The position numbers were made by a program, and so were the translations under genes. Positions 11,664 to 33,517 of a stretch of DNA of 33,527 nucleotides are shown one piece after another. The stretch comes from Pseudomonadota bacterium (GTDB lineage: Bacteria; Pseudomonadota; Gammaproteobacteria; Burkholderiales; Nitrosomonadaceae). Below the pieces are notes generated by a model. It made no database searches. It saw only the letters and a program-made list of their open reading frames with translations, and was not told the DNA's origin. The stretch's first letter is position 1. Every line of letters begins with the position of its first letter. The stretch lies in assembly GCA_018241205.1 (NCBI GenBank), contig JAFEEI010000047.1, positions 1 through 33,527 on the forward strand. The letters run 5' to 3'.

Positions 11664-11774
11664 AGCAAATGGCGTTTGACTTCAAGTTTCAGCGGTACTG
11701 ATTTTATCCGTCAATAGTCTTGAAATTCAAATAGTATTAGGGTTTCCGGCCCAGTTTTTATATAGGAAGTAGAA

Positions 11775-11978
11775 ATGGCAACAGGTACAGTAAAATGGTT
11801 CAACGATTCCAAAGGTTTCGGTTTTATTACTCCAGATGATGGCAGCGAGGATTTATTCGCTCACTTCTCAGCAATCAACATGTCTGGTTTTAAAACCCTT
11901 AAAGAAGGTCAAAAAGTGAGTTTTGATGTCACGCAAGGACCAAAAGGAAAACAAGCCTCTAATATCCAATCCACTTAA
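11775..11978 (+). CDS. Cold-shock protein, CspA family (copy 1)
   Basis: A 67-aa single cold-shock domain. The RNA-binding motifs RNP1 (KGFGFI) and RNP2 (DLFAHFS) are intact, with the N-terminal [16 protein letters not shown] typical of CspA/CspD-like proteins. Such proteins bind single-stranded RNA and DNA and act as RNA chaperones. The ATG follows AGGAAG at suitable distance. It stands alone, with a strong terminator 55 bases downstream. It is closely related to a second copy at 19400-19603; whether it is cold-induced cannot be read from the sequence. Confidence 0.95.
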
Positions 11979-17594: not shown

Positions 17595-18354
17595 TTAGCG
17601 GACTGCAATATGACCGTCATCCCGTTTGTGAATCAGGAAGTAGACCACCGGAATCACCAACAGGGAAAATAATGTTGAAGCGAAGATGCCGAAGATGAAG
17701 TTCCAAGCCAGCCCCGAGAAGATTGGATCGAGAATCGTACAGGGTCGACGTAGATCGATACGCGGCGCTGTTCACCGCCAACCACCCAGCTTTTGCCGAT
17801 ATCGTCGATGCTCTTGAATGCGACGATCAGCTCATCGGCAACGTGGCGCAGCGTCATGGAATCATGCTGGCCGCTTTGCGACGACAGCGTCAGCATGACG
17901 ATCGGCACATTGTCGATTTCGACTGGATTGACCCGCCAGCCGGTCACACCCGGCGGAATCAGATGCTGATTGGATAGCAGTTTGTTCCAAGTTTTGATCA
18001 GGCTATTCTGGTAATTCTGGCCGACATAGTAGCGCACGGTAATCACCGCCGCGCCAGGGCGGGATACGGAATACACATATTCCACGCCCTCGATTTGCTT
18101 TAGCAGCACTTTCAATGGCGTGGCCGCGAGTTTTTCCACTTCCTTGCTCGACGCACCGGGGTACTCGAGCAGCACATCCATCACCGGCACGACGATTTGC
18201 GGATCTTCCTCGCGCGCGGCGTCAGTATCAGCGCAGCCGCGCCCGCCAGCATCGAGATAATCAGAAACAGTATGGAAAGCTGCGAAGTCGTGAAAACGTT
18301 GACGATCTTGGTCGTCAGGCTATGCCTGACGCTCCGGTTTTCGGTATTATCCAC
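17595..18354 (-). pseudogene. RND efflux pump remnant with large internal deletion
   Basis: Reverse-strand pieces of an RND (HAE1-like) inner-membrane pump. A GTG near 18354 begins an N-terminal piece with the first membrane helix (QLSILFLIISMLAGAAALIL). A frameshift in a GC run (CCGCGCGCGAGG, two extra bases) follows, then the porter segment PVMDVLLEYPGASSKEVEKL up to about SIYVDPVRF. The frame then switches to the extreme C-terminal tail (SGLAWNFIFGIFASTLFSLL, ending HKRDDGHIAVR). A normal protein is over 1000 aa, so roughly 800 residues including most membrane helices and the proton-relay residues are gone. It cannot function. The N-terminus overlaps the end of the upstream adaptor remnant. 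Confidence 0.85.
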
Positions 18355-19089: not shown

Positions 19090-19159
19090 TAAAACAAAAT
19101 ATTTCAGAAAGAAATGACATTGTCCAATTCAGTCTGGCCGGCTTACCTACAGATGCTTA

Positions 19160-19303
19160 GGGAACGCTGATTAATTTACTATATGCGCGAATAGATTCGT
19201 TGCGCGGTACTCACTTTCTTGCCTATCTTGATGATATATCTAGGCCGCTTGCGTTCCGTGCGCCTATCGCCTCATTTCGCTCGCCGAATTAATCAGCGTT
19301 TCC
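19160..19303 (+). repeat. MITE-like palindromic element, copy 1
   Basis: The element is bounded by inverted ends GGAACGCTGATTAATT (19161-19176) and AATTAATCAGCGTTTCC (19287-19303). The interior aligns by eye with copy 2 (23404-23513, same orientation) and copy 3 (33371-33517, opposite orientation), including CGTTGCGCGG, TGCCTATCTTG and CTCGCCGAATTAATCA. It has no coding capacity. It lies between the efflux remnant and the second cold-shock gene. Confidence 0.85.
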
Positions 19304-19399: not shown

Positions 19400-19603
19400 T
19401 TACAGCGGCACGATATTGGATGCCTGTTTACCTTTGGGGCCGGTGGTAATGTCAAAGGTAACGCGCTGAGCTTCGCGCAATGATTTGAAACCACTGCTGT
19501 TGATTGCGGAGAAGTGTGCGAATAAATCTTCTCCACCGTTATCTGGGGTAATAAAGCCAAAACCTTTGGCGTCATTGAACCATTTAACTACACCTGTTGC
19601 CAT
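19400..19603 (-). CDS. Cold-shock protein, CspA family (copy 2)
   Basis: A 67-aa single cold-shock domain with RNP1 KGFGFI and RNP2 DLFAHFS, highly similar to the copy at 11775-11978. Differences cluster in the middle and end (for example [14 protein letters not shown] against [14 protein letters not shown]). The frame could start 19 codons earlier, but the Met at 19603 matches copy 1 and follows an AAGGAAAT site. It is a separate transcription unit with its own terminator, divergent to katA across a 391-base gap. It likely acts as an RNA chaperone; the inducing condition is not visible. Confidence 0.95.
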
Positions 19604-19994
19604 GTTGATTTCCTTAATAATGAATGAATATATTTTTCTACAGCGAACCGTAGCGGCCATCGAATATCAAGGAAAAAGGTCAACTGTAAGCATCGCATTT
19701 CACAACTTGAATCCAAAAGACTCGTTTAAGATACACGTTTCCAAGCAAAGTTCAAGTATTTATTGAAAATGCCGGGTGCAGTAACTTAACAATTCAACAG
19801 AATTGGGCGATTCTGGCGGGTTGATCCAGATAACTTCTCAGACGCTCTTTGCGCGCTTCGGATTTTTGCGATTCCGCTTGGCATCCAATTTCCGTATTCT
19901 CAAATTTTTGTCCGGGAAATGTTTCTTTTGCTGGATTGTCTATTTGATTTTGTTGTGTTGTAACCTGCCGATTCACATTTACGAGGAGGATGCC
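19604..19994. other. Divergent csp2/katA intergenic region
   Basis: About 390 bases hold no convincing gene. The katA frame stays open leftwards to 19803 but that part has no family resemblance. A small perfect stem CAATTC-AACA-GAATTG is at 19790-19805. Both promoters should be here; no clear OxyR or PerR box was recognised by eye. Confidence 0.5.
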
Positions 19995-23403: not shown

Positions 23404-23513
23404 AGGAAACGCTGATTAATTGACTGTACGAGTAAATCGCTTCATTGCACGGTATTCGCTTCCTTGCCTATCTTGTTGATAGGTCTCGCTCGCCGAATTA
23501 ATCAACGTTTTCC
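23404..23513 (+). repeat. MITE-like palindromic element, copy 2 (internally shortened)
   Basis: Ends AGGAAACGCTGATTAATT (23404-23421) and AATTAATCAACGTTTTCC (23496-23513) are near-perfect inverted repeats. The interior matches copy 1 up to TTGATAGGTCTC, then lacks about 35 bases before GCTCGCCGAATT. It ends 6 bases from the stop of the TolC-like gene and could serve as its transcription end. Confidence 0.85.
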
Positions 23514-23519
23514 GAAGAA

Positions 23520-24875
23520 TCAATACGAATCCGCTTTAAAATAGCTGGCTATATTTCTTAAATCATCCAATACCAACGTGCCTGCGGCCAATTGCAGGCG
23601 TAGATAAGCCAGCAGGTAATCGTACCGCGCCTGCGAAAGATCGCGTTGGGCTGTGTACAGTTGTTGCTGTGCTTCCAGAAGGTTCAAATTGATCCGGATA
23701 CCGCCGCGGATACTTTTTTCTGTTGCAGCAACAAGCAACTCGGCTGACTTGACTGCCAGTTCCAATGATTCAATTTTTTTGACACCGCTTTTGAGTAAAT
23801 TATGTTGCTTTTTTAACTCAACTAGCACTTTGTCGGTCATTGCGTCGAGGTCGGCTTCAGCGCGCGCATAATTTGCTTTTGCTTGCGCCGTTAGCGCATT
23901 TACACGGCCACCCGTGTATAAAGGAAAATTGACTTCGACACCGATGGTGCCAAGCTCGGCATCTTGATTGCGCGTGATAAAAGACCCTCTATTATTCTTT
24001 GATAAGCTGGCGACCAAATCAACGCGCGGCACATGGCCTGCGAAATTCTTTCTGACTTCTTCCTTGCCGGATGTTACGGTGTGACGTTGCGTCACAATCT
24101 CGGCATTTCGTTCCAGAGCCATGGCATGCCATTCATCATAATCTTGCAACTGAATGGATCGGGTATTAAACGCATGAGACAATCGATCGAGTTGGGTTAT
24201 TTTTTGCCCTACGATGGCTCCAAGTGTAAGTTGAGCGGATTCCAGCTCGTCTCTTGCTTCAATCGCTTTAGCTTGTGCAATCGCGTGTTTCGATTGTGTT
24301 TCCAGGACATCGGTGGTGGTGCCTTCGCCTTTTATCAGCATGCGTTCATTGACGCGCTTGAGCTCATCAAGTGCATTTAATTGCGCTTCGGTGATTTTGA
24401 CATGATCCTGAGCCAGCAATGTTTCTACATAGGCTTCCACTAACCGCACCACCAGTTGCTGGCTGCGCCCGGTGAATTTAGCCCGGCTTGAGTCGGCTTG
24501 CGCTTTACCCATGCGGTAACTGGCCATAGCTTCTAAATTGATCAATGGCTGACGAAGTGTTAATGAGCTGATCTGACTATCGAAATGAGTATGTTGAGAA
24601 AAATTTGTAATATTTCCAGTCAGACTTTGTTGTTGTCCTGAAATGGTTCCCGCACTTTTACTTTGATTGTGAGTAATAGCCAAGTTAGGCAGCAAGCTTG
24701 CCAAGCCAATGGTTTCAGCTTGCTGTCCGGCTTCATTTTCATGATAAGCGGAGCGGTAAATCGGATCATGGTTGAGTGCAGCTTCATAAGCATCCAGCAG
24801 GTTCATTGCCTGAGCAGAGCTGAATAAACTGAACAAAAGCCAAACAGAAAACGAGATTTTAGGAATATTCATCAT
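23520..24875 (-). CDS. TolC-family outer-membrane channel of a type I secretion system
   Basis: A 451-aa TolC/PrtF-like protein. A signal peptide (MMNIPKISFSVWLLFSLFSSAQA) is followed by MNLLDAYEAALNHDPIYRSA, the usual start of type I outer-membrane proteins. Two outer-membrane-efflux repeats follow, with strand motifs SLTLRQPLINLEAM and VEVNFPLYTGGRVNAL each leading into a long helical hairpin. The C-terminal GGIRINLNLLEAQQQLYTAQ is typical of the family. The channel spans the outer membrane and periplasm and docks on the HlyD adaptor. Its gene lies 5 bases after the adaptor gene and closes the probable operon; MITE-like copy 2 begins 6 bases past its stop. Confidence 0.93.
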   Translation of the reverse strand: MMNIPKISFSVWLLFSLFSSAQAMNLLDAYEAALNHDPIYRSAYHENEAGQQAETIGLASLLPNLAITHNQSKSAGTISGQQQSLTGNITNFSQHTHFDSQISSLTLRQPLINLEAMASYRMGKAQADSSRAKFTGRSQQLVVRLVEAYVETLLAQDHVKITEAQLNALDELKRVNERMLIKGEGTTTDVLETQSKHAIAQAKAIEARDELESAQLTLGAIVGQKITQLDRLSHAFNTRSIQLQDYDEWHAMALERNAEIVTQRHTVTSGKEEVRKNFAGHVPRVDLVASLSKNNRGSFITRNQDAELGTIGVEVNFPLYTGGRVNALTAQAKANYARAEADLDAMTDKVLVELKKQHNLLKSGVKKIESLELAVKSAELLVAATEKSIRGGIRINLNLLEAQQQLYTAQRDLSQARYDYLLAYLRLQLAAGTLVLDDLRNIASYFKADSY

Positions 24876-24880
24876 TACCG

Positions 24881-26233
24881 CTACTCTTCACTCAAAGCGG
24901 AATGCACACGATCCAGGATCGGTTTGAATAGATAACTTAGTAACGAGCGCTCGCCTGTTTTGATAAATATTTCCACCGGCATGCCCGCGCGTATCTGTTC
25001 TTCGGCGAGTTTTTTCATGCCCTCCGGTGTTACGGCAGCCTTCATATTGTAGTACGGCAGCCCGCTTCGTTCATCAACGAGGCGATCCGCTGATACCTGG
25101 GTGACAATGCCCGGAATATTAGGTGCTTTCTTTTGATTCAGGGCAGAGAAAATAAGGTCGACCGGTAAGTCGAGATGCACCTTGTCAATTAAATGAACCG
25201 GAACTTCTCCGGTAACGATCAGGATATCGTTGCTTGGCACGATATCCATCAATTTGAATCCGGGGCTGATAACGCCACCTTCGGTAAACACATTCATGCC
25301 GACCACGATTCCGTCTACAGGCGCTTTAACTTCAATGTTGGCCAATTCGAAATCTTGTCCGTTCAGGCGATTGCGTAAGGAATCAACTTCCCGCTTCGTT
25401 TCGGTTAGCTGCTGTCCTACTTCCTTTTGATATTCCTGTTGACGATGAATGCGCCGTTGCTCCTGCTCGGCAATTTGCCGTTGAGTCCGGCCGATGTTTC
25501 CGGTTTCGGAAAAAATATCACCGGTCAATTGAGTATAGGTGCGTTCCAACTCCAATACGCGATTACGAGGTACAAAACCGTCGTGCTCCAGATCGCGCAT
25601 ATTGATTAATTGTTCTTCCAAAAACTTCAATTGCGTGTTTTTACTGGTTTTGGATGCTTCCAGTCCGCGCAATTGCATTTTTAAACCGGCAATATTCTCA
25701 TCCAGTGCGGCGATTTCATGCCGCAGAGCTAATTTGCGCGATGTAAAAAGCTGAGTTTGTATAGCGATATTGTTGGCGACGCGCGGATCATTTTGTTGTG
25801 CTAATAAATCTTGCGGAAACGTGATTTTGTCCACCCCATCACGCTCTGCCAGTAAGCGAGCCTCCATTGTCAGGGCGGTATAGAGTTGACTACGGGTGAT
25901 CTCGGCTTGTGCCTTGACTTGAGTATCGTTCATCCGCGCCAGCACTTGACCTACTGCAACATGATCGCCCTCCTTAACCAGGATGCTGTCGATGATTCCG
26001 CCGATTTGATGTTGAACAGCCTGCAGATGACTGGCGACTGTAACGGTGCCTGGAACCGGTACGCCTTTTTCCAGCGGTGCAAAAGCTGCCCAAAGCATGA
26101 ATCCGCCGAAGCCCGCCAGCACAATCCACCAGCCCAGCCGGGTATGCAGCGTTTCATCTGTCTCCACGTGATGCGCCGAATCGGCTGAGGCATTATCAAT
26201 AGCGGTTTTTTTTTCTTCTGCTGCGAGCTTCAT
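24881..26233 (-). CDS. HlyD-family periplasmic adaptor (type I secretion)
   Basis: A 450-aa membrane-fusion protein of the HlyD/PrtE type. A short cytoplasmic start is followed by one membrane helix (about 33-53, LGWWIVLAGFGGFMLWAAF). The lipoyl/barrel half-motif GTVTVASHLQAVQHQIGGII, a long coiled-coil hairpin (about 95-290) and the second barrel half (APVDGIVVGMNVFTEGGVIS) come next, and the HlyD family C-terminus AGMPVEIFIKTGERSLLSYL closes it. It links the ABC protein to the TolC-like channel. It starts 60 bases after the ABC gene and is followed after 5 bases by the channel gene, so the three form one system. Confidence 0.95.
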   Translation of the reverse strand: MKLAAEEKKTAIDNASADSAHHVETDETLHTRLGWWIVLAGFGGFMLWAAFAPLEKGVPVPGTVTVASHLQAVQHQIGGIIDSILVKEGDHVAVGQVLARMNDTQVKAQAEITRSQLYTALTMEARLLAERDGVDKITFPQDLLAQQNDPRVANNIAIQTQLFTSRKLALRHEIAALDENIAGLKMQLRGLEASKTSKNTQLKFLEEQLINMRDLEHDGFVPRNRVLELERTYTQLTGDIFSETGNIGRTQRQIAEQEQRRIHRQQEYQKEVGQQLTETKREVDSLRNRLNGQDFELANIEVKAPVDGIVVGMNVFTEGGVISPGFKLMDIVPSNDILIVTGEVPVHLIDKVHLDLPVDLIFSALNQKKAPNIPGIVTQVSADRLVDERSGLPYYNMKAAVTPEGMKKLAEEQIRAGMPVEIFIKTGERSLLSYLFKPILDRVHSALSEE

Positions 26234-26293
26234 TATTTTTCCTATCCGGTAATCAGTATTTTCTTAAGTGCAATGGAAAAGCCATGGCAAAAA

Positions 26294-28081
26294 TCAGCCG
26301 GTTTGGGAATTGACCGTATTGGCGGCCTGGGATGCTTGGTTTTGTGCAGCTTGTTGTTCGGCCTTTTGTTGCGCCAGCTGCGCCTGTTGAGTTTGTTGTT
26401 GCTTCTTAAGCGCTTCTACCACTTGATTGGTCGGTCCGAAAATTTTCGCTGTTCCTTCCTGCAGCAATAGTAATGTAGTGGTTGCGCTGAGGATGCTGGT
26501 GCGGTGCGTGATCAAGACAATGGTTTTGCCGCGTTTGTGCAGATCAACGATGGCGGCCAGCAACGCCTGTTCGCCCACGTCATCGAGGTTGGAGTTGGGT
26601 TCATCGAGCACGATCAGCGAGGGGTCGTCGTACATAGCACGCGCCAAACCGATGCGCTGCTTTTGTCCACCGGAAAGACCGGCGCCGCCATCACCCAAAA
26701 GCGTATCGTAACCCTCCGGCATGTTCAGGATCATTTCATGAACGCCGGCACGTTTGGCTGCCAGGATAACTTTCTCCGCATTGACTTCACCAAAGCGAGC
26801 GATATTTTCTGAAACCGATCCGGCGAAGAGTTCGATATCTTGCGGCAAATATCCGATATGCGGCCCCAGCTCGTCTTTGTTCCATTGATAAACGTCGGCG
26901 CCATCCAATCTGACTTTCCCCGCGGCAGCCGGCCATACGCCAACCAGCAAGCGCGCCAGTGTCGATTTCCCCGATCCGCTCGGACCGATGATGCCGAGCA
27001 CTTCACCGGCAGCCAGGGAAAAAGTCAATCCCTTGAGCACTGGAAGCTTGCTGCCGGGTGGGGCCGCCGTGACATTTTCGACAGCAATAGAACCTTGCGG
27101 TTTAGGCAGCGCCATCCCGGCTTTTCTTTCCGGGTGCTGGTCAAGTAATTTGATCAATCGTTCGTAGGCGCTGCGTGTACCGCCGATTTGCTTCCATACG
27201 CTGATCAGTAATTGCACCGGTGCAATGGCTCTACCCAATAGGATGGAACCGGCGATCATCATCCCCGGCGTAATACTGTCGTCCAGAACCAGCAAGGCGC
27301 CCAACCCCAGCATCAGCGATTGCAGCGCGACAGTGCAGGATTTTGACAGCGCGGTGACGATACCGGCTTTTTCGCTGGCCTCGGCTTGCAGATTGAGAAA
27401 ACGCCGGTGCAGTTTATACCAGCGCGCTTGGAGATTGGGCAGCATGCCCATTGCTTCGATGACTTCGGCATTGCGCAGATTATTGGAGGCGATATTGGTG
27501 GATGCAACCGCCATTGAATTGGCCTCGGCTAACGGCTTATGCGAAATTTTTTCATTGATATAGGCCAGCGCGATGAGTATGACTGTGCCGCACAAAGCAA
27601 AAACGCCCAAAACGGGATGAAACATGAAGATCACGAATAAATAAATCGGAAACCACGGCGCGTCAAAAAAAGCGAACAACGCATTGCCGGTGAGGAATTG
27701 CCGCAGGTTGGTCAGATCCTTTAAAGCTTGCCCGGCATTGCTGCCGCCTTGTTTCAGGCTCTCCTCGAAAGCAGCCGTGTATACGCGCTTATTCAATTTC
27801 ATATCGAGTTGCGCACCGACACGGATTAATACAAAGCTGCGCACATATTCCAACGCTCCCATGAACGTGTACGCGCCCAACATGATCAGCGTGAGCATGA
27901 GCAGTGTCATTTCGTTGCGGCCGGTTAATACGCTGTCATAAAGCTGCAGCATATAAATGGCCGGCATCAGCATCAGCACATTGATGACGGCACTGAAAAC
28001 GCCAATGTTTCTAAAGGTTTTCTTAAAGCTGGTCAGTACCTGTGCAATTTCATTCTGAGGCGCTTTAAATTTGAACTTCAT
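26294..28081 (-). CDS. Type I secretion ABC transporter, PrtD-like
   Basis: A 595-aa fused membrane/ATPase half-transporter. The N-terminal part has about six hydrophobic helices (for example LMLMPAIYMLQLYDSVL) and no C39 peptidase domain. The nucleotide domain has Walker A GPSGSGKST (near residue 370), signature LSGGQKQRIGLARAMY, Walker B LIVLDEPNSNLDD and switch His in LITHRTS. PrtD-like exporters without C39 move proteins with uncleaved C-terminal signals, often RTX repeats. The last 50 residues are a glutamine/alanine-rich tail (KKQQQTQQAQLAQQKAEQQ), longer than in the usual PrtD. No substrate gene is in the window. Confidence 0.94.
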   Translation of the reverse strand: MKFKFKAPQNEIAQVLTSFKKTFRNIGVFSAVINVLMLMPAIYMLQLYDSVLTGRNEMTLLMLTLIMLGAYTFMGALEYVRSFVLIRVGAQLDMKLNKRVYTAAFEESLKQGGSNAGQALKDLTNLRQFLTGNALFAFFDAPWFPIYLFVIFMFHPVLGVFALCGTVILIALAYINEKISHKPLAEANSMAVASTNIASNNLRNAEVIEAMGMLPNLQARWYKLHRRFLNLQAEASEKAGIVTALSKSCTVALQSLMLGLGALLVLDDSITPGMMIAGSILLGRAIAPVQLLISVWKQIGGTRSAYERLIKLLDQHPERKAGMALPKPQGSIAVENVTAAPPGSKLPVLKGLTFSLAAGEVLGIIGPSGSGKSTLARLLVGVWPAAAGKVRLDGADVYQWNKDELGPHIGYLPQDIELFAGSVSENIARFGEVNAEKVILAAKRAGVHEMILNMPEGYDTLLGDGGAGLSGGQKQRIGLARAMYDDPSLIVLDEPNSNLDDVGEQALLAAIVDLHKRGKTIVLITHRTSILSATTTLLLLQEGTAKIFGPTNQVVEALKKQQQTQQAQLAQQKAEQQAAQNQASQAANTVNSQTG

Positions 28082-28158
28082 CTGGTTATCAATACCGTGC
28101 TGTTGAGAGATTTATCGGTGAAAATGCAATCGATTGAATTAATTATAATTGCTGGTGG

Positions 28159-29049
28159 TCAGCTTTGACCAGGCAAATCGTTTATTGTCAGGTTGAACGG
28201 CCGCGGGCGAAAGTGTAAATCCTGTTTGGCTTCCGAACAGTCAAATTTTAAATCCTGATTCATTCTTTCCGCCATGGCCACAGTCCAGTTACGGTAATGC
28301 GGCAGCCATTTCAGTCCCCAGGCTGCTATTTGAAAAAGCCACAGTGGCACCGTGAATGTACGTACGGGATGATTCATCGCTTTAAATACGCGCTCCACCA
28401 TTGCGCGATAGGTCAAAGTTTCTCCGCCGCTTAAGTTATAGGCGCGACCGGATAGATTGGATGCACCAAGCGCGGCATAGCATGCCGCAGCGACATCTTC
28501 GCCATGCACCGGTTGCCGCAAGCCGAGCGCTGACCCCAGTAGAGGGAAAAATCCAAGGCGGCGAATAAATCGTGCAATTTCGGTGATATTTTTATCGCGT
28601 CCGTATCCGTAAATAAGTGTCGGGCGCAATATAATCCATTGTATGCCATGCGCAGCAGCCCACGTTTGTAAACATTCTTCGCCTTCAATCAATTGTTGTG
28701 CAATTTTTCTTTCATCGGGATCGGGTGAGGTAGCTTTGGTGAAACGGCTGGTGGAGGATAATACGACGATCCGCCGGGCGTTATAAGCTGATAAAAGATC
28801 AAAGTGTTCGGGTAATATCCAAATGGGTGCTACACATAACCAAGTGTGAATTTCGTTTTCCTCAATGCAATCTTTCACGTTGCCTATTGTATCAAATTGT
28901 TGCCATGTGATTTGCGAGTGCTGCATTACGTTTGTGATTGGCCGGCGGGAAAATGCAGCGATATGCCAGTTATTCTCGATCAGTTTTCTTAGCAAACATT
29001 CGCCGACCAGGCTTGTGGCGCCCAATAGGCCTACGTATTGCTTATTCAT
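28159..29049 (-). CDS. NAD-dependent epimerase/dehydratase-like protein (extended SDR)
   Basis: A 296-aa extended short-chain dehydrogenase. The nucleotide site is GLLGATSLVGECLLRKL (atypical GxxGxxG). The RRIVVLSSTSRFTKATSPDP segment holds the strand with catalytic Ser, but the usual YxxxK pair is not evident at the expected place, although LRPTLIYGYGRDKN resembles the family's RPxxxYGPG motif. This suggests a sugar-nucleotide epimerase/reductase relative or an NDUFA9-like non-catalytic protein. It overlaps the upstream glycosyltransferase gene by 8 bases and precedes the ABC gene, so it belongs to the same unit. Its substrate is not known. Confidence 0.8.
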   Translation of the reverse strand: MNKQYVGLLGATSLVGECLLRKLIENNWHIAAFSRRPITNVMQHSQITWQQFDTIGNVKDCIEENEIHTWLCVAPIWILPEHFDLLSAYNARRIVVLSSTSRFTKATSPDPDERKIAQQLIEGEECLQTWAAAHGIQWIILRPTLIYGYGRDKNITEIARFIRRLGFFPLLGSALGLRQPVHGEDVAAACYAALGASNLSGRAYNLSGGETLTYRAMVERVFKAMNHPVRTFTVPLWLFQIAAWGLKWLPHYRNWTVAMAERMNQDLKFDCSEAKQDLHFRPRPFNLTINDLPGQS

Positions 29050-29983
29050 GCTTGAATTTCAGCAGCCGGTAGCAGTTGCGCGCCGAATGGTACAGCACCG
29101 CTCCAGCGAAGCGCAGCCATACGCCTGCCGTAATTAATCCCATCAACGTGCCTGGATAGTGCTGACGGAAAAATTTCCGGTAGAAATGCAGCATGCCTCT
29201 GTGTTTATGCCAGGCGACGAAGAATGGCCGTGAGCGGCTGCAGGTGCCCTGAAAATGAACGACTGGGGCATCCGGCACAAAAACAATTTTCCAGTTTTTT
29301 TGTTTGAACCGCATACACCAATCCAGATCCTCGCAATGCAGAAAATACTGTTCGTCCCAGGGACCGACATCGTCAATGGCTTGCCGCCGGACCAGCATCA
29401 ATGCCCCGGATATCGCTTCAACTTCGACAGGAGTTTGGGGCAAGGGTTGTTTATTCAAATGAAAATCAAAAAACAATCGCGGCCAGTATTTCTCCAGATG
29501 ATACAAGCCGAAGGCGCGCACAAGAGCCCGCCACGGCGTCGGGATGGCTCGCCGTCCGCCACCTTGCTCGGAGCCATCTGGGTTAACAAGGTAACCGCCA
29601 ACCATACCGATAGTAGAATCGGATTCCATCACTTGCACCATACGCTGCAGCGATCCCTCATTCAAAATACAGTCAGGATTGAGGAAGAGAATATAGGGCT
29701 GGGTCGACGCAGAGAGGCCGGTATTGCAACCGGCGGCAAAACCGGCATTACTATTTAAGCGAATTATCTGGAGGTGATTATGTGCAAAAAAACTAGATTC
29801 AAGTTCTAACAGACTGGAATCAGATGAAGCATTGTCAATGACTAAAACTTGCTCAGCTTGTTGCAAAACTGCCTGAACACACTGGGTTAATATGGAACCG
29901 GCGTTATAGTTTACAATTATTGTAGATATGGACAGTTTGTATCGTTTTTTTATGGTGTGGCAGATTTCCTGTGGAGCGTGCAT
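29042..29983 (-). CDS. GT2 glycosyltransferase (rhamnosyltransferase-like)
   Basis: A 313-aa GT-A fold enzyme. Motifs in order: ISTIIVNYNAGSILTQCVQA, VIDNASSD, NSNAGFAAGCNTGL, FLNPDCIL (DxD-like site) and GALMLVRRQAIDDVGPWDEQ. FLHCEDLDWCMRF (catalytic ED region) follows, with a weakly hydrophobic C-terminal region after 265. It resembles WbbL-type rhamnosyltransferases acting on lipid- or protein-linked glycans. GAAGG stands 6 bases ahead of the start. It is the third glycosyltransferase in the seven-gene run and its stop overlaps the epimerase-like gene. Donor and acceptor cannot be read from the sequence. Confidence 0.9.
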   Translation of the reverse strand: MHAPQEICHTIKKRYKLSISTIIVNYNAGSILTQCVQAVLQQAEQVLVIDNASSDSSLLELESSFFAHNHLQIIRLNSNAGFAAGCNTGLSASTQPYILFLNPDCILNEGSLQRMVQVMESDSTIGMVGGYLVNPDGSEQGGGRRAIPTPWRALVRAFGLYHLEKYWPRLFFDFHLNKQPLPQTPVEVEAISGALMLVRRQAIDDVGPWDEQYFLHCEDLDWCMRFKQKNWKIVFVPDAPVVHFQGTCSRSRPFFVAWHKHRGMLHFYRKFFRQHYPGTLMGLITAGVWLRFAGAVLYHSARNCYRLLKFKHE

Positions 29984-30054
29984 TGTCTACCTTCAAATAA
30001 TTACTGATCAGTATTATCGGTAATGGTGTCGAGGTGTCAATAGGTTGTATTTTC

Positions 30055-31047
30055 TCATTTGGCGGATGCTTTAATAAAAGCCTTACGAGGCAACCAAACC
30101 ATCATTTGGAGTAAGCTTAAGCAAGAGCAAATCCGTTTACTCTGAATTTTTTTTCTTTGCGCTAATAGTGATCTGACATGCTTAAAGGCATCGATTTTAG
30201 CTTGTAAATAAAGTCCAAGACGGCCAGAAGCAGCATAAAAGAATCCCACGTAAAAAATCATGGCTAAATGGATCGGCAAGAGAATAAAAATTAGCGGACT
30301 GGGCATATTCTTGATAAATGTCCAAGTTAAGTTACGATGCCCATGATAAACAGAAAAGTCGCTCGAGCTTCCCGTGATACCTGAACCGACATGATGGACT
30401 TTTGCACTGGGTAATAACAGGCTTTTACCACCGATAAGCCGCAGACGAAAGCCAAGATCGACATCTTCGGAATAAGCGAAATAGGACTCATCGAATCCGC
30501 CCAACTGGCGGTATGTTTCGGCGCGATATACTGCAGCAGCTGCACATGCTGAAAAAACTTCTATCGGATGTGCTGGCGTGATATTGCAAGGATATCCATG
30601 ACCAGTGCGCCAATGTAGTCCGGATATGTGATAAGTATCACCCACCCCATCCAGGTGTGATGGTTTATTTGCGTCAATCAGTGCACAGGCAAAGCAATCG
30701 ACGTTGGGAATCCGATTAATATTTTTTACAATTTCTTCCAGGCATTCCGGCTCAGGATAAGCATCAGGGTTCAGAAAAAAAATCCAATCACTTTGAATAT
30801 AATCCGCTACGGCGAGGTTATTTGCAGCGGCGAAACCGGTATTTTCGTTGAGGCGAACAAGGCGGCATGGGAAGTTTGTTTTCTCGGCTGCCTGCCAAGA
30901 ATTATCCATGCTGTGATTATCTATTACGATGACCTCGAAATTTGAGTAAGTTTGCTCCGCTAATGCGGACAAAGCTTTGGACAGCATCTCTCCAGAATTG
31001 TAGTTGACAACGATAACAGAAATAAAAGGGTTTTGCGCGAGAGTCAT
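30055..31047 (-). CDS. GT2 glycosyltransferase
   Basis: A 330-aa GT-A enzyme related to the one at 29042-29983. Motifs: FISVIVVNYNSGEMLSKALS, VIDNHSMDNSW, NENTGFAAANNLAV, FFLNPDAYPEPECLEEI, ACAAAAVYRAETYRQLGGFD, FAYSEDVDLGFRLR and a short hydrophobic segment near residues 255-277 (ILLPIHLAMIFYVGFFYAAS) that could anchor it to the membrane. No strong ribosome site precedes the ATG. It lies between two other glycosyltransferase genes with gaps of 46 and 71 bases. A role in building a surface glycan is inferred from the neighbours. Confidence 0.9.
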   Translation of the reverse strand: MTLAQNPFISVIVVNYNSGEMLSKALSALAEQTYSNFEVIVIDNHSMDNSWQAAEKTNFPCRLVRLNENTGFAAANNLAVADYIQSDWIFFLNPDAYPEPECLEEIVKNINRIPNVDCFACALIDANKPSHLDGVGDTYHISGLHWRTGHGYPCNITPAHPIEVFSACAAAAVYRAETYRQLGGFDESYFAYSEDVDLGFRLRLIGGKSLLLPSAKVHHVGSGITGSSSDFSVYHGHRNLTWTFIKNMPSPLIFILLPIHLAMIFYVGFFYAASGRLGLYLQAKIDAFKHVRSLLAQRKKIQSKRICSCLSLLQMMVWLPRKAFIKASAK

Positions 31048-31093
31048 TAGTTTTGCAGATCATGATCAGGTTTCATGATTAAGTATGATTTAC

Positions 31094-33199
31094 TCACGCA
31101 TTGATTACTTGATTGATCGTATTTTTGAAATTCTGGCCATCTTGCAGAATATTACGCAGTTGGTGTTCGGCAGTAGCAAATGAGAAATGTTCCTCGATAT
31201 TAACTTTTCCGGAATTGGACAAACTTGCCCATAATTGTTCATCATCGTATGCGCGGACAATTTGTCTAGCGAAGTCTTCCGGAGCGTCTGCAATCAGGAT
31301 GTCTTTGCCGTGCGCGAGATTCATTCCTTCGGCTGCCACTGTGGTTGCGACTACCGGCACACCGTAAGTCATGCTGGTATTGATTTTGCCTTTAACACCC
31401 GCGCCATAACGAATGGGAGCGATAGATAGTCTGATACGATCAAAAATTGGTTTTATGTCTGATACAAAGCCTTTAATAATGATATGCGAAGAAGCATGAG
31501 CAGCAATTTTTTGGGGAATATGGGAGCCGATAATCAAAAGTTTTAAATCCGGTTTTAATGAATGGAGTATCGGGAAAATTTCGATAATAAAAAATTCCAT
31601 GGCATCAACATTAGGCAGGTGTTCAAAGCCGCCGATAAATAGAATATCTTCTCTTTCTTGATATCCGAAAACAGTTTCCTGGTTTTGATGAATATTCGAT
31701 AACAGCGCTACCGGAACATCGGGGGCTTCTTGTTTAAATAATTCAATTTCTACCGGGCTGACTAATAATGTTTTATCCGCTTTACGTGCAGTGCTTAATT
31801 CTTGCAGTTTTAGCCTTTCGGCCGCAGCCAATTGCTGCTTGTCCTGATTAATCAAAGCTTGCCGCTGTTCACGCAAAAAATGAAGATCCACCGTATCGAA
31901 CAGTATCATTGCATTCGTGCAGTATTTTTTTGCAGTATCTATAAATTGCTCAGCAACATTTACCCGGCTGAGTAGTACAACATCATATAGATGCCCATGT
32001 GCTGTCAAATGTGAATGAATTGATTCCAGATAAGGCAAATAAAAGCATTCGATACCGATAGATTGCATTTTTCGCGTATAAACCGGATGATATGCGAGAG
32101 TTTTTGCGATGAAACTGACTTTGTATCCTAATTTTTTGAAAATATGCAATAAATTGAACATGCGCAGTGAACCGGAGTTGTCGTCAGGCATTAGCACCCG
32201 CTCATCGAGGACAAGCGCACGCTTGATAACGTCACGTTCTTTTTCAAGGAGTGGCATGTCGCCGTTGATCCGGTGAGACTGTAGTGTTTCATGCCAGCGT
32301 TGATAAAACTTTTCATGATTAATAGTCTGGTAACGCTTGGTGCCTTGTGTAACATCAGTTCCAGAAGATATGCCTTCGAAATGAATGACGGTGGCGGCGG
32401 GTTGATAGTACACTTTCTTTCCAGCCTTCCTGACACGAAAAGCGAGATCGGTGTCTTCATAATAAGCGGGGGTATAGTAGTCATCCAATAATCCGAGATC
32501 GATAAGATCTTGCCGTTTAATCATTAAACAAGCTCCCGAACAATAATCAACTGTTCTGCAATAGGAATATTCCGGCTTTTCTGGATCATCGTAGCGCCCA
32601 TAATTCCAGGCTGAAGCATCCTGCCACACGATACCCCCGGCTTCTTGCAGCTTGCCATCAGGATAGACCAGTTTGACTCCCACCAATCCGGCATTTGGAA
32701 AGTCTAAGAATGTTTTTGTTAACGCATTCAACCAGCCGTGAGTGACGATAGTATCGTTGTTTAACAGTACGATAAAGCGCCCTTTTGCGACGTTAACCCC
32801 GGCATTGCAAGAATAGATGAATCCCTTGTTTTTTATATTGTGGATAACTGTAATTCCTTTGATATTATTGAGCATCTTGGAGGTGTCATCGGTTGATGCA
32901 TCATCCACGACAATAACTTCATAGGCACTTTCTCCACTATTTTCATAAATCGATTTAAGGCAGGTGAAAGTATACAAATGTTTGTTGTGAACCGGGATGA
33001 TAATAGAAATATCTGGATGGGTGGTCTCTGGAAAACTAAGTGGGTGATAGCGGGTTGCAGTTGAATAATGATTCTTCTGTGGATGGGCTTTCTGAGGGGT
33101 AGAAAAGCACTTTTTGTAGATTCGTGTGAGTAACGCACTTAATCCTTGTGTTTTTAGAATGCTTATTGCAACTGGAAAGTATTTAAATAGTTTGGTCAT
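31094..33199 (-). CDS. Two-domain glycosyltransferase (GT2 fused to GT4-like)
   Basis: A 701-aa fusion. Residues of about 60-300 are a GT2 domain: DISIIIPVHNKHLYTFTCLK, VVDDASTDDTS, NKGFIYSCNAGV, LLNNDTIVTHGWLNAL, GACLMIKRQDLIDLGLLDD and YEDTDLAFRVRK. Residues of about 340-690 resemble a GT-B (GT4-like) domain: DDNSGSLRMFNLLHIFKKLG, ILFIGGFEHLPNVDAMEFF, LLIIGSHIP, SIAPIRYGAGVKGKINTSMT and GVPVVATTVAAEGM. Such proteins can add two sugars in sequence. It is the first gene of the unit and is preceded by an AT-rich region with MITE-like copy 3. The specific sugars are unknown. Confidence 0.9.
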   Translation of the reverse strand: MTKLFKYFPVAISILKTQGLSALLTRIYKKCFSTPQKAHPQKNHYSTATRYHPLSFPETTHPDISIIIPVHNKHLYTFTCLKSIYENSGESAYEVIVVDDASTDDTSKMLNNIKGITVIHNIKNKGFIYSCNAGVNVAKGRFIVLLNNDTIVTHGWLNALTKTFLDFPNAGLVGVKLVYPDGKLQEAGGIVWQDASAWNYGRYDDPEKPEYSYCRTVDYCSGACLMIKRQDLIDLGLLDDYYTPAYYEDTDLAFRVRKAGKKVYYQPAATVIHFEGISSGTDVTQGTKRYQTINHEKFYQRWHETLQSHRINGDMPLLEKERDVIKRALVLDERVLMPDDNSGSLRMFNLLHIFKKLGYKVSFIAKTLAYHPVYTRKMQSIGIECFYLPYLESIHSHLTAHGHLYDVVLLSRVNVAEQFIDTAKKYCTNAMILFDTVDLHFLREQRQALINQDKQQLAAAERLKLQELSTARKADKTLLVSPVEIELFKQEAPDVPVALLSNIHQNQETVFGYQEREDILFIGGFEHLPNVDAMEFFIIEIFPILHSLKPDLKLLIIGSHIPQKIAAHASSHIIIKGFVSDIKPIFDRIRLSIAPIRYGAGVKGKINTSMTYGVPVVATTVAAEGMNLAHGKDILIADAPEDFARQIVRAYDDEQLWASLSNSGKVNIEEHFSFATAEHQLRNILQDGQNFKNTINQVINA

Positions 33200-33370
33200 T
33201 TGTAGGCTTGCTTTTGTTGGCTTTGATGTATTTCAAAATAATCTGAACAATTGGGTAACAAGAGTTGGTTAGCGAAATTAATGACTAATTGAAATACAAC
33301 GGTTTCTTATATCTATATTTTGTAGAACAACAATTGAACGGCATTTTATAGCATGCGGTGATCGTTTGTT

Positions 33371-33517
33371 AAGGAAGCGCTGATTAATTCGGCGAACGAG
33401 ATGAAGCACGAGGCGCACGGCACACAGCAACCGAGACATATCAACAAGATAGACGAGGGAGTGAGTGCCGCGCAACGAAGTGATTCGCTCGTATAGTCAA
33501 TTAATCAGCGTTTCCTT
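33371..33517 (-). repeat. MITE-like palindromic element, copy 3 (inverted)
   Basis: Ends AAGGAAGCGCTGATTAATT (33371-33389) and AATTAATCAGCGTTTCCTT (33499-33517) are inverted repeats with one mismatch. The reverse complement of the interior matches copy 1 nearly throughout. It sits about 170 bases before the first glycosyltransferase gene; the rest of 33200-33527 is AT-rich and shows no gene. Confidence 0.85.

Follow-up and report, generated by a model that had tools for sequence, protein, structure and literature searches.

The window, the whole stretch of DNA analyzed herein, is the entire 33,527-nt contig C152 of a genome assigned to Nitrosomonas and carries seven genes, all on the reverse strand between 23520 and 33199, for three glycosyltransferases, an epimerase/dehydratase-like protein, and a type I exporter of three components (Table 1). 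It ends 11 bases past copy 3 of a palindromic element resembling a miniature inverted-repeat transposable element (MITE). The intergenic distances in the run are 5, 60, 77, -8, 71, and 46 bp, and the coordinates and domains hold as described in the initial annotation, which reported gaps of 5–77 bp and one overlap. ABC_membrane and ABC_tran were the only Pfam domains over the cut-off in the 595-aa ABC exporter; a C39 peptidase domain was not detected in it by Pfam. This protein was the sole one of its genome above the TIGR01842 cut-off (1 of 47 matches), and the predicted exporter is a PrtD-type type I secretion system with a HlyD adaptor and a TolC channel. Another exporter of the same genome does carry C39: at L126:5124-9637 (contig C164), a radical SAM protein, a HlyD-type adaptor, and a C39-peptidase ABC exporter are encoded consecutively, a cluster that is possibly for modified-peptide export.

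Table 1. Features of the exporter end of the locus in the window
Feature	Position	Strand	Evidence or remark
MITE-like element copy 2, degenerate	23404..23524		repeat match reaches into the final bases of the TolC gene
TolC-family outer-membrane channel, type I exporter, 451 aa	23520..24875	-	PF02321 E 1.2e-49; TIGR01844 299.7 bits, over cut-off
HlyD-family periplasmic adaptor, 450 aa	24881..26233	-	TIGR01843 401.5 bits, over cut-off
PrtD-type ABC exporter, 595 aa	26294..28081	-	TIGR01842 773.7 bits (cut-off 510.15)
Epimerase/dehydratase-like protein (NAD-dependent), 296 aa	28159..29049	-	PF01370 E 7.5e-13
GT2 glycosyltransferase GT2b, 313 aa	29042..29983	-	PF00535 E 1e-21
GT2 glycosyltransferase GT2a, 330 aa, variable cassette	30055..31047	-	PF00535 E 7.2e-26
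GT2-GT4 fusion glycosyltransferase, 701 aa, variable cassette	31094..33199	-	PF00535 and PF13692
MITE-like element copy 3, at contig end	33361..33516		insertion rather than locus boundary

In relatives, a giant gene with an RgpF domain precedes the GT2-GT4 gene on the same strand, the entire locus is contiguous, and a gene for a surface layer (S-layer)-like protein is divergent from wzm. The counterpart of the RgpF giant in the present genome starts at base 24 of contig C49 and is 88% identical to residues 214–1530 of the L015 protein. From there on, C49 encodes on one strand the RgpF/GT2/HAD giant, a PIG-L deacetylase, a GT4 glycosyltransferase, a methyltransferase-GNAT protein, Wzt with a Wzt_C domain, and Wzm. 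The S-layer-like protein, called the coat protein below, is encoded at C128:25486-27786 (766 residues), and the 5' end of its gene faces a contig end lying in a MITE-like element. The order of the genes across C152, C49, and C128 is inferred from synteny with relatives. The locus is roughly 20–25 kb in size, with the exporter at the opposite end from the coat gene and a variable glycosyltransferase middle. The seven genes are one end, the exporter end, of a larger conserved cluster. Open reading frames (ORFs) in the fetched loci were called with a simple longest-ORF script, and their starts are approximate.

The gene divergent from wzm in relatives encodes an RTX-type protein whose start is conserved; most complete versions have approximately 760–880 residues, and some are longer. 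Mean column identity was 62% across 26 N-terminal domains and 41% across 15 full-length proteins. All 15 contained no cysteine, with isoelectric points of 4.05–4.28 and a Thr+Ala+Gly+Ser content of 45–54%; the coat protein of the present genome also lacks arginine and has two RTX motifs. A profile of the 15 proteins matched four S-layer/RsaA chains in the PDB (6p5t, 5n97, 5n8p, and 6z7p; 3e-40 to 2.8e-33), among which we take 6p5t to be Caulobacter RsaA as well, while alginate epimerases were the best non-RsaA molecules (3.4e-6). Searched alone at E<=0.01, the coat protein of the present genome matched two chains only, both S-layer/RsaA, and these matches were weak (4.1e-5 and 6.4e-5) with heavy composition bias. 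Its C-terminal end aligns with that of RsaA (YGGNTYVV versus FGGDTYVV), through to KLTG. Two other RTX proteins of the same genome, used as controls, matched CyaA, serralysins, and lipases (33 and 32 PDB sequences), and RsaA was absent from both lists. Homology between the later two thirds of the coat protein and the lattice-forming C-terminal part of RsaA is well supported by these profile matches. The initial annotation had placed the cargo of the exporter, an RTX/S-layer-type protein, outside the window and proposed a search for such genes elsewhere in the genome; the RsaA-related gene found on C128 makes this cargo likely.

Other candidates and indicators were also considered. The RTX ORFs on C148 (2160 aa) and C23 (588 aa) were rejected as linked cargo; they resemble CyaA/serralysins, not RsaA. 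The codon bias of the coat gene ranked 10 among 138 ORFs against a two-gene reference and was dropped as a sign of high expression, being too weak with that reference. The present genome also encodes a 300-aa protein with a coat-type N-terminal domain (L158:6144-7046 on C155; 1.5e-19), and short paralogues of this domain occur in other genomes of the genus. In G004, the coat gene is split into two ORFs in the assembly (L147:11971-14351). A 511-aa methyltransferase with a MethyTransf_Reg domain adjoins the coat gene in G045 and G044 (L194:14098-15633 and L195:4611-6146), and ORFs of 511–516 aa occupy the same position in G053, G035, G050, and G023.

Conservation was assessed in an exporter-based set, the best 80 of 549 confirmed loci. 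The exporter was at least 77% identical in 51 of the 80; GT2b (at least 60%) was present in 47 of these close loci and the epimerase (at least 49.7%) in 49, and two of the four without GT2b end at a contig edge. In the 29 distant loci (exporter identity of 75% or less), GT2 matches at 28% were found in two and an epimerase match in none. Since the close loci carry GT2b and the epimerase and the distant loci do not, we consider the link between glycosyltransferases and exporter to be characteristic of Nitrosomonas and its nearest relatives. No locus titled N. europaea or N. eutropha was among the best 80 of 549.

Of 85 genomes of the genus, including the present one, 75 encoded the exporter, 69 the coat protein, and 72 the epimerase ortholog. 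All 10 genomes without the exporter also lacked the coat protein and the epimerase ortholog (Fisher's exact test, shared ancestry ignored: exporter versus coat protein, 2.6e-9; exporter versus epimerase, 9e-11). The epimerase ortholog was counted at E values of about 1e-71 or better, weaker paralogues being present in 124 of 125 genomes. G049 was counted as coat-negative, its sole match (1.1e-4) being a short paralogue (raw tally, 70), and weak coat-protein matches such as those in G031 (2.3e-7) and G067 (2.9e-9) were retained. The genomes assigned to N. oligotropha Nm45 (G033) and Nm75 (G034) and to N. marina Nm22 (G029) and Nm71 (G030) all had the coat protein.

Linkage was measured as the distance from the coat gene to the epimerase beside the exporter. 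Both genes were present in 66 genomes, on different contigs in 26, on one contig within 50 kb in 34, and on one contig but separated by over 1 Mb in six; thus, 34 of the 40 same-contig pairs lay within 50 kb, and 33 of these 34 were divergent. Because a distance of at most 50 kb between coat gene and epimerase was the selection criterion for the 34 linked loci, the frequencies of these two genes among them carry no weight as evidence. Wzm and Wzt were each present in 33 of them, methyltransferase-GNAT in 28, and GT2b in 33 (the remaining locus is cut before GT2b), while RgpF was found in 18, GT2a in 13, the GT2-GT4 fusion in eight, and GT4 and PIG-L in seven each. In these counts, the Wzt of G067 (49%) falls just below the 50% threshold, the stretch of G047 ends before its epimerase and GT2b, and the coat protein of G033 is below the threshold, yet was detected in the genus-wide search. 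The ends of the locus are constant and its middle is variable, a pattern shared with O-antigen loci. Accordingly, the association of glycosyltransferases with the exporter put forward in the initial annotation, which suggested comparing neighborhoods, is borne out for GT2b and the epimerase, which recur beside the exporter; GT2a and the GT2-GT4 fusion are variable. G085 (L236-L237) and G033 (L238-L239) have a gene set including a 3462–3464-aa protein inside the locus, between methyltransferase-GNAT and RgpF.

We propose that the larger locus, of which the seven genes form the exporter end, directs S-layer biogenesis in the manner of the Caulobacter RsaA/RsaDEF system, and that its glycosyltransferases synthesize an O-antigen-like polysaccharide by which the coat is moored; we assign this reading a probability of approximately 0.7. 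The PrtD-type ABC protein, HlyD adaptor, and TolC channel would export the RsaA-like S-layer protein from the cytoplasm to the outside by means of a C-terminal signal; the C terminus of RsaA is its secretion signal. The GT2-GT4 fusion, GT2a, GT2b, and probably the epimerase-like protein would make the polysaccharide together with the C49 gene products (the RgpF/GT2/HAD giant, PIG-L, GT4, and methyltransferase-GNAT), and Wzm/Wzt would export it as an O-antigen or similar glycan. The conserved N-terminal domain of the coat protein (approximately 200 residues) would hold this glycan, and the RsaA-like C-terminal part would form a Ca2+-dependent lattice. This division of labor follows Caulobacter, in which RsaDEF secretes RsaA, the N-terminal domain binds the O-antigen of lipopolysaccharide, and the C-terminal domain is a Ca2+-dependent lattice, as described in the portions of the two sources considered (PMC8828063, PMC11026435). 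With gene content, linkage in relatives, co-occurrence, and the RsaA relationship established by comparison of sequences, the S-layer reading is well supported at the sequence level; secretion of the coat protein by the window exporter and lattice formation are expected on the same model, and mooring by the glycan is suggested by analogy.

Several observations weigh against this proposal. The ends of C152, C49, and C128 share zero overlap and the bases beyond the element copies differ; therefore, joining these contigs by end overlap was rejected, and they are not physically joined here. Of the 75 exporter-bearing genomes, six yielded no coat protein. Among the 66 genomes with both genes, the 26 with the coat protein and epimerase on separate contigs are mostly drafts and include the present genome, and in the six with distant genes the coat gene lies 1.1–2.1 Mb from the epimerase. 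The locus of G101 is split between PIG-L and GT2b: the coat gene stays with Wzt, methyltransferase-GNAT, GT4, and PIG-L, and GT2b and the epimerase stay with the exporter. A 26-sequence profile of the N-terminal domain (approximately 210 residues) gave no significant match in the PDB (best, 0.55), and homology to the O-antigen-binding domain of RsaA lacks sequence support. Anchor and glycan did not covary in either of two tests, which used 26 (cassette class) and 22–28 (partial correlation) of the 34 loci. After correction for exporter divergence, N-terminal similarity showed no association with the class of RgpF cassette (permutation p 0.45, 26 loci). Partial correlations of the N-terminal domain with six locus genes were 0.31–0.44 (all p <=0.002), but that with GT2b (0.35) was below that with HlyD (0.44), giving no sign of coupling between anchor and glycan; because the values for pathway genes were no higher than that for HlyD, we attribute them to shared history. 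Possibly the anchor binds an invariant portion of the glycan; alternatively, the N-terminal domain may not serve as the anchor. Lastly, a C-terminal motif was found in seven of the 11 RTX ORFs of the present genome, the coat protein included, versus 25 of 128 other ORFs (fetched contigs). Since other RTX-like proteins share this motif, the exporter probably has further cargo.

The last point also bears on the possibility that the system is a general RTX exporter whose nearness to a polysaccharide cluster is mostly historical, the two having separate jobs. The genome has one PrtD-type exporter and several RTX-type ORFs on other contigs; furthermore, 11 of the 29 distant loci have an ORF with at least two RTX motifs near the exporter, while GT2b and the epimerase never exceed 28% there. 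However, one divergent arrangement is kept genus-wide (33 of 34 linked pairs), the exporter, coat protein, and epimerase are jointly absent from 10 genomes, which may represent few lineages, and a small number of distant loci have Wzm/Wzt-like genes in the vicinity of this exporter (L064, 55–56% identity; L073, 32–39%; L079, 39–51%). We therefore regard this explanation as improbable. L073 also encodes a 1209-residue protein that matches the coat profile (2.3e-13, high bias), and at L061, outside the genus, where the exporter is 73% identical, an 892-aa ORF lying approximately 7 kb upstream of it matched only S-layer/RsaA chains in the PDB (1.7e-24). Order-wide, the N-terminal domain is rare, being found in 11 of 300 genomes, six of which belong to the genus.

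The glycosyltransferases may instead glycosylate an RTX/S-layer protein in the cytoplasm, before or during type I export, and the initial annotation had assumed that they act on the secreted protein. S-layer glycoproteins exist in other bacteria. The archaeal coat protein NmSLP bears glycans, according to the part of the source considered (PMC11153153). In addition, GT2b and the epimerase adjoin the exporter and remain with it even where the Wzt half lies elsewhere, as in G101. However, polymers handled by Wzm/Wzt are delivered to the periplasm, a compartment that type I substrates do not pass through, and the recurrence of Wzm, Wzt, and methyltransferase-GNAT in the linked loci points to a polymer that is exported there. 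Their presence in the locus consequently argues for an ABC-exported O-antigen-like polysaccharide rather than protein glycosylation. Moreover, RsaA, the nearest relative with a structure, is described as O-antigen-binding in the text considered (PMC8828063). Protein glycosylation is thus an unlikely role, and action on the secreted protein was not supported.

The MITE-like element is approximately 145 bp in length and hairpin-forming, and a further copy lies in the window at 19159-19303. Copies 2 and 3 flank the seven genes and are inverted relative to each other (90 nt, 83% complementary); copy 3 is a predicted hairpin (folding z -4.98). Outside the window, a copy is present upstream of wzm (C49:10022-10173) and a partial copy at the end of C128. 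The local density of the element is accordingly high: after TolC, beside GT2-GT4, upstream of wzm, and, partially, at the end of C128. The 3.08-Mb genome has at least 40 scored full-length-like copies (40 of the 155 first-look candidates were scored), at least 11 of which start no more than 100 bases from the beginning of a contig. No copies were found in the 11 orthologous stretches (10 relatives) that span both flanks, nor did any appear when the search was rerun at a relaxed cut-off with a positive control that worked. One of the 34 linked loci, that of G096, holds copies, inside the locus near the Wzm end and at neither end of the seven genes; most of these 34 stretches stop short of the TolC flank in the element scan.

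The inverted copies had been taken to delimit a seven-gene unit, and might even have carried or mobilized the genes as a cassette. Copies 2 and 3 are indeed present near both ends in opposite orientations, and the chance of copies within 400 bp of both ends of a random 10-kb stretch is 5e-5 (40 copies) to 4.5e-4 (155 copies), assuming uniform placement. However, copy 3 is internal to the locus, which in relatives continues past this site and here goes on in C49, and the element-free stretches of the 10 relatives carry the locus. A MITE-bounded cassette was rejected on this synteny, and mobilization by the copies is highly improbable. Because the 11 stretches from relatives are without copies, and copies also lie upstream of wzm and at the end of C128, we consider the elements to have been inserted into an older locus.

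Elsewhere in the window, a second inverted repeat pair is present at 11758-11966 and 19412-19620 (209 nt, 73% complementary). A 178-aa ORF (17654-18190) matches only positions 41–192 of the 1021-position AcrB/AcrD/AcrF family and is likely a remnant of an RND pump gene. Rfam gave no matches in the window at gathering cut-offs.

RsaA-type S-layers are of a known kind; the new points, as predicted from the genomes, are that most Nitrosomonas genomes encode such a coat, that no solved relative was detected for its N-terminal domain, and that a single locus contains a swappable glycan middle. We found no description of an RsaA-type coat in Nitrosomonas in the literature searched, the coverage of which mostly excluded subscription journals. 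In the part considered of a study on the S-layer of archaeal ammonia oxidizers, this layer was proposed to concentrate ammonium, which could explain a higher affinity than that of ammonia-oxidizing bacteria, and these bacteria were said to generally lack S-layers (PMC11153153). If 69 of 85 genomes encode an RsaA-type coat, that premise needs testing for Nitrosomonas. A within-genus comparison would also become possible with the 10 genomes without exporter, coat protein, and epimerase, and cultured species, among them N. oligotropha and N. marina, now have a candidate coat protein and candidate assembly genes.

We speculate, as a long shot, that most Nitrosomonas wear an acidic RsaA-family S-layer, anchored by their own O-antigen, as a cation-attracting sieve that aids ammonium capture, a bacterial counterpart of separate origin to the archaeal S-layer. 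The coat proteins are net negative (acidic-residue excess of 30–116 in 14 relatives), and 11 of 15 have the greatest excess in their C-terminal third. If oriented like RsaA, this third would face outward, opposite to the archaeal gradient towards the cell, and the sieve reading stays speculative for this reason.

Among known systems, Caulobacter crescentus RsaA/RsaDEF is similar in several respects. The later two thirds of the coat protein match the lattice part of RsaA (3e-40), the coat is acidic and without cysteine, the exporter is of type I, and O-antigen-type polysaccharide genes are in the same locus; in Caulobacter, O-antigen genes lie near the rsa genes. In contrast, the Nitrosomonas N-terminal domain has no sequence match to a solved structure, the coat gene is divergent from wzm, the exporter is at the far end of the locus, and the glycosyltransferase middle is variable. 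ABC-transporter-dependent O-antigen loci, as this family is generally described, share Wzm, Wzt with Wzt_C, a methyltransferase-containing protein, several glycosyltransferases, and constant ends with a variable middle; however, the Nitrosomonas locus has in addition a type I exporter for protein and a coat gene in divergent orientation. The NpdA proteins, S-layer proteins of both beta- and gammaproteobacteria (Nitrosococcus among them), are likewise proposed for an ammonia oxidizer and tied to a secretion cluster, but the link is to type II secretion (gsp) genes, and Nitrosomonas is unmentioned in the main text of the source (PMC10765051). The hauberk S-layer proteins of methanotrophs (MEALZ_0971 and EQU24_15540) are also RsaA-related coats near type I secretion genes; however, these organisms are methane oxidizers, and the part of the text considered mentions no polysaccharide gene cluster (PMC11784148).

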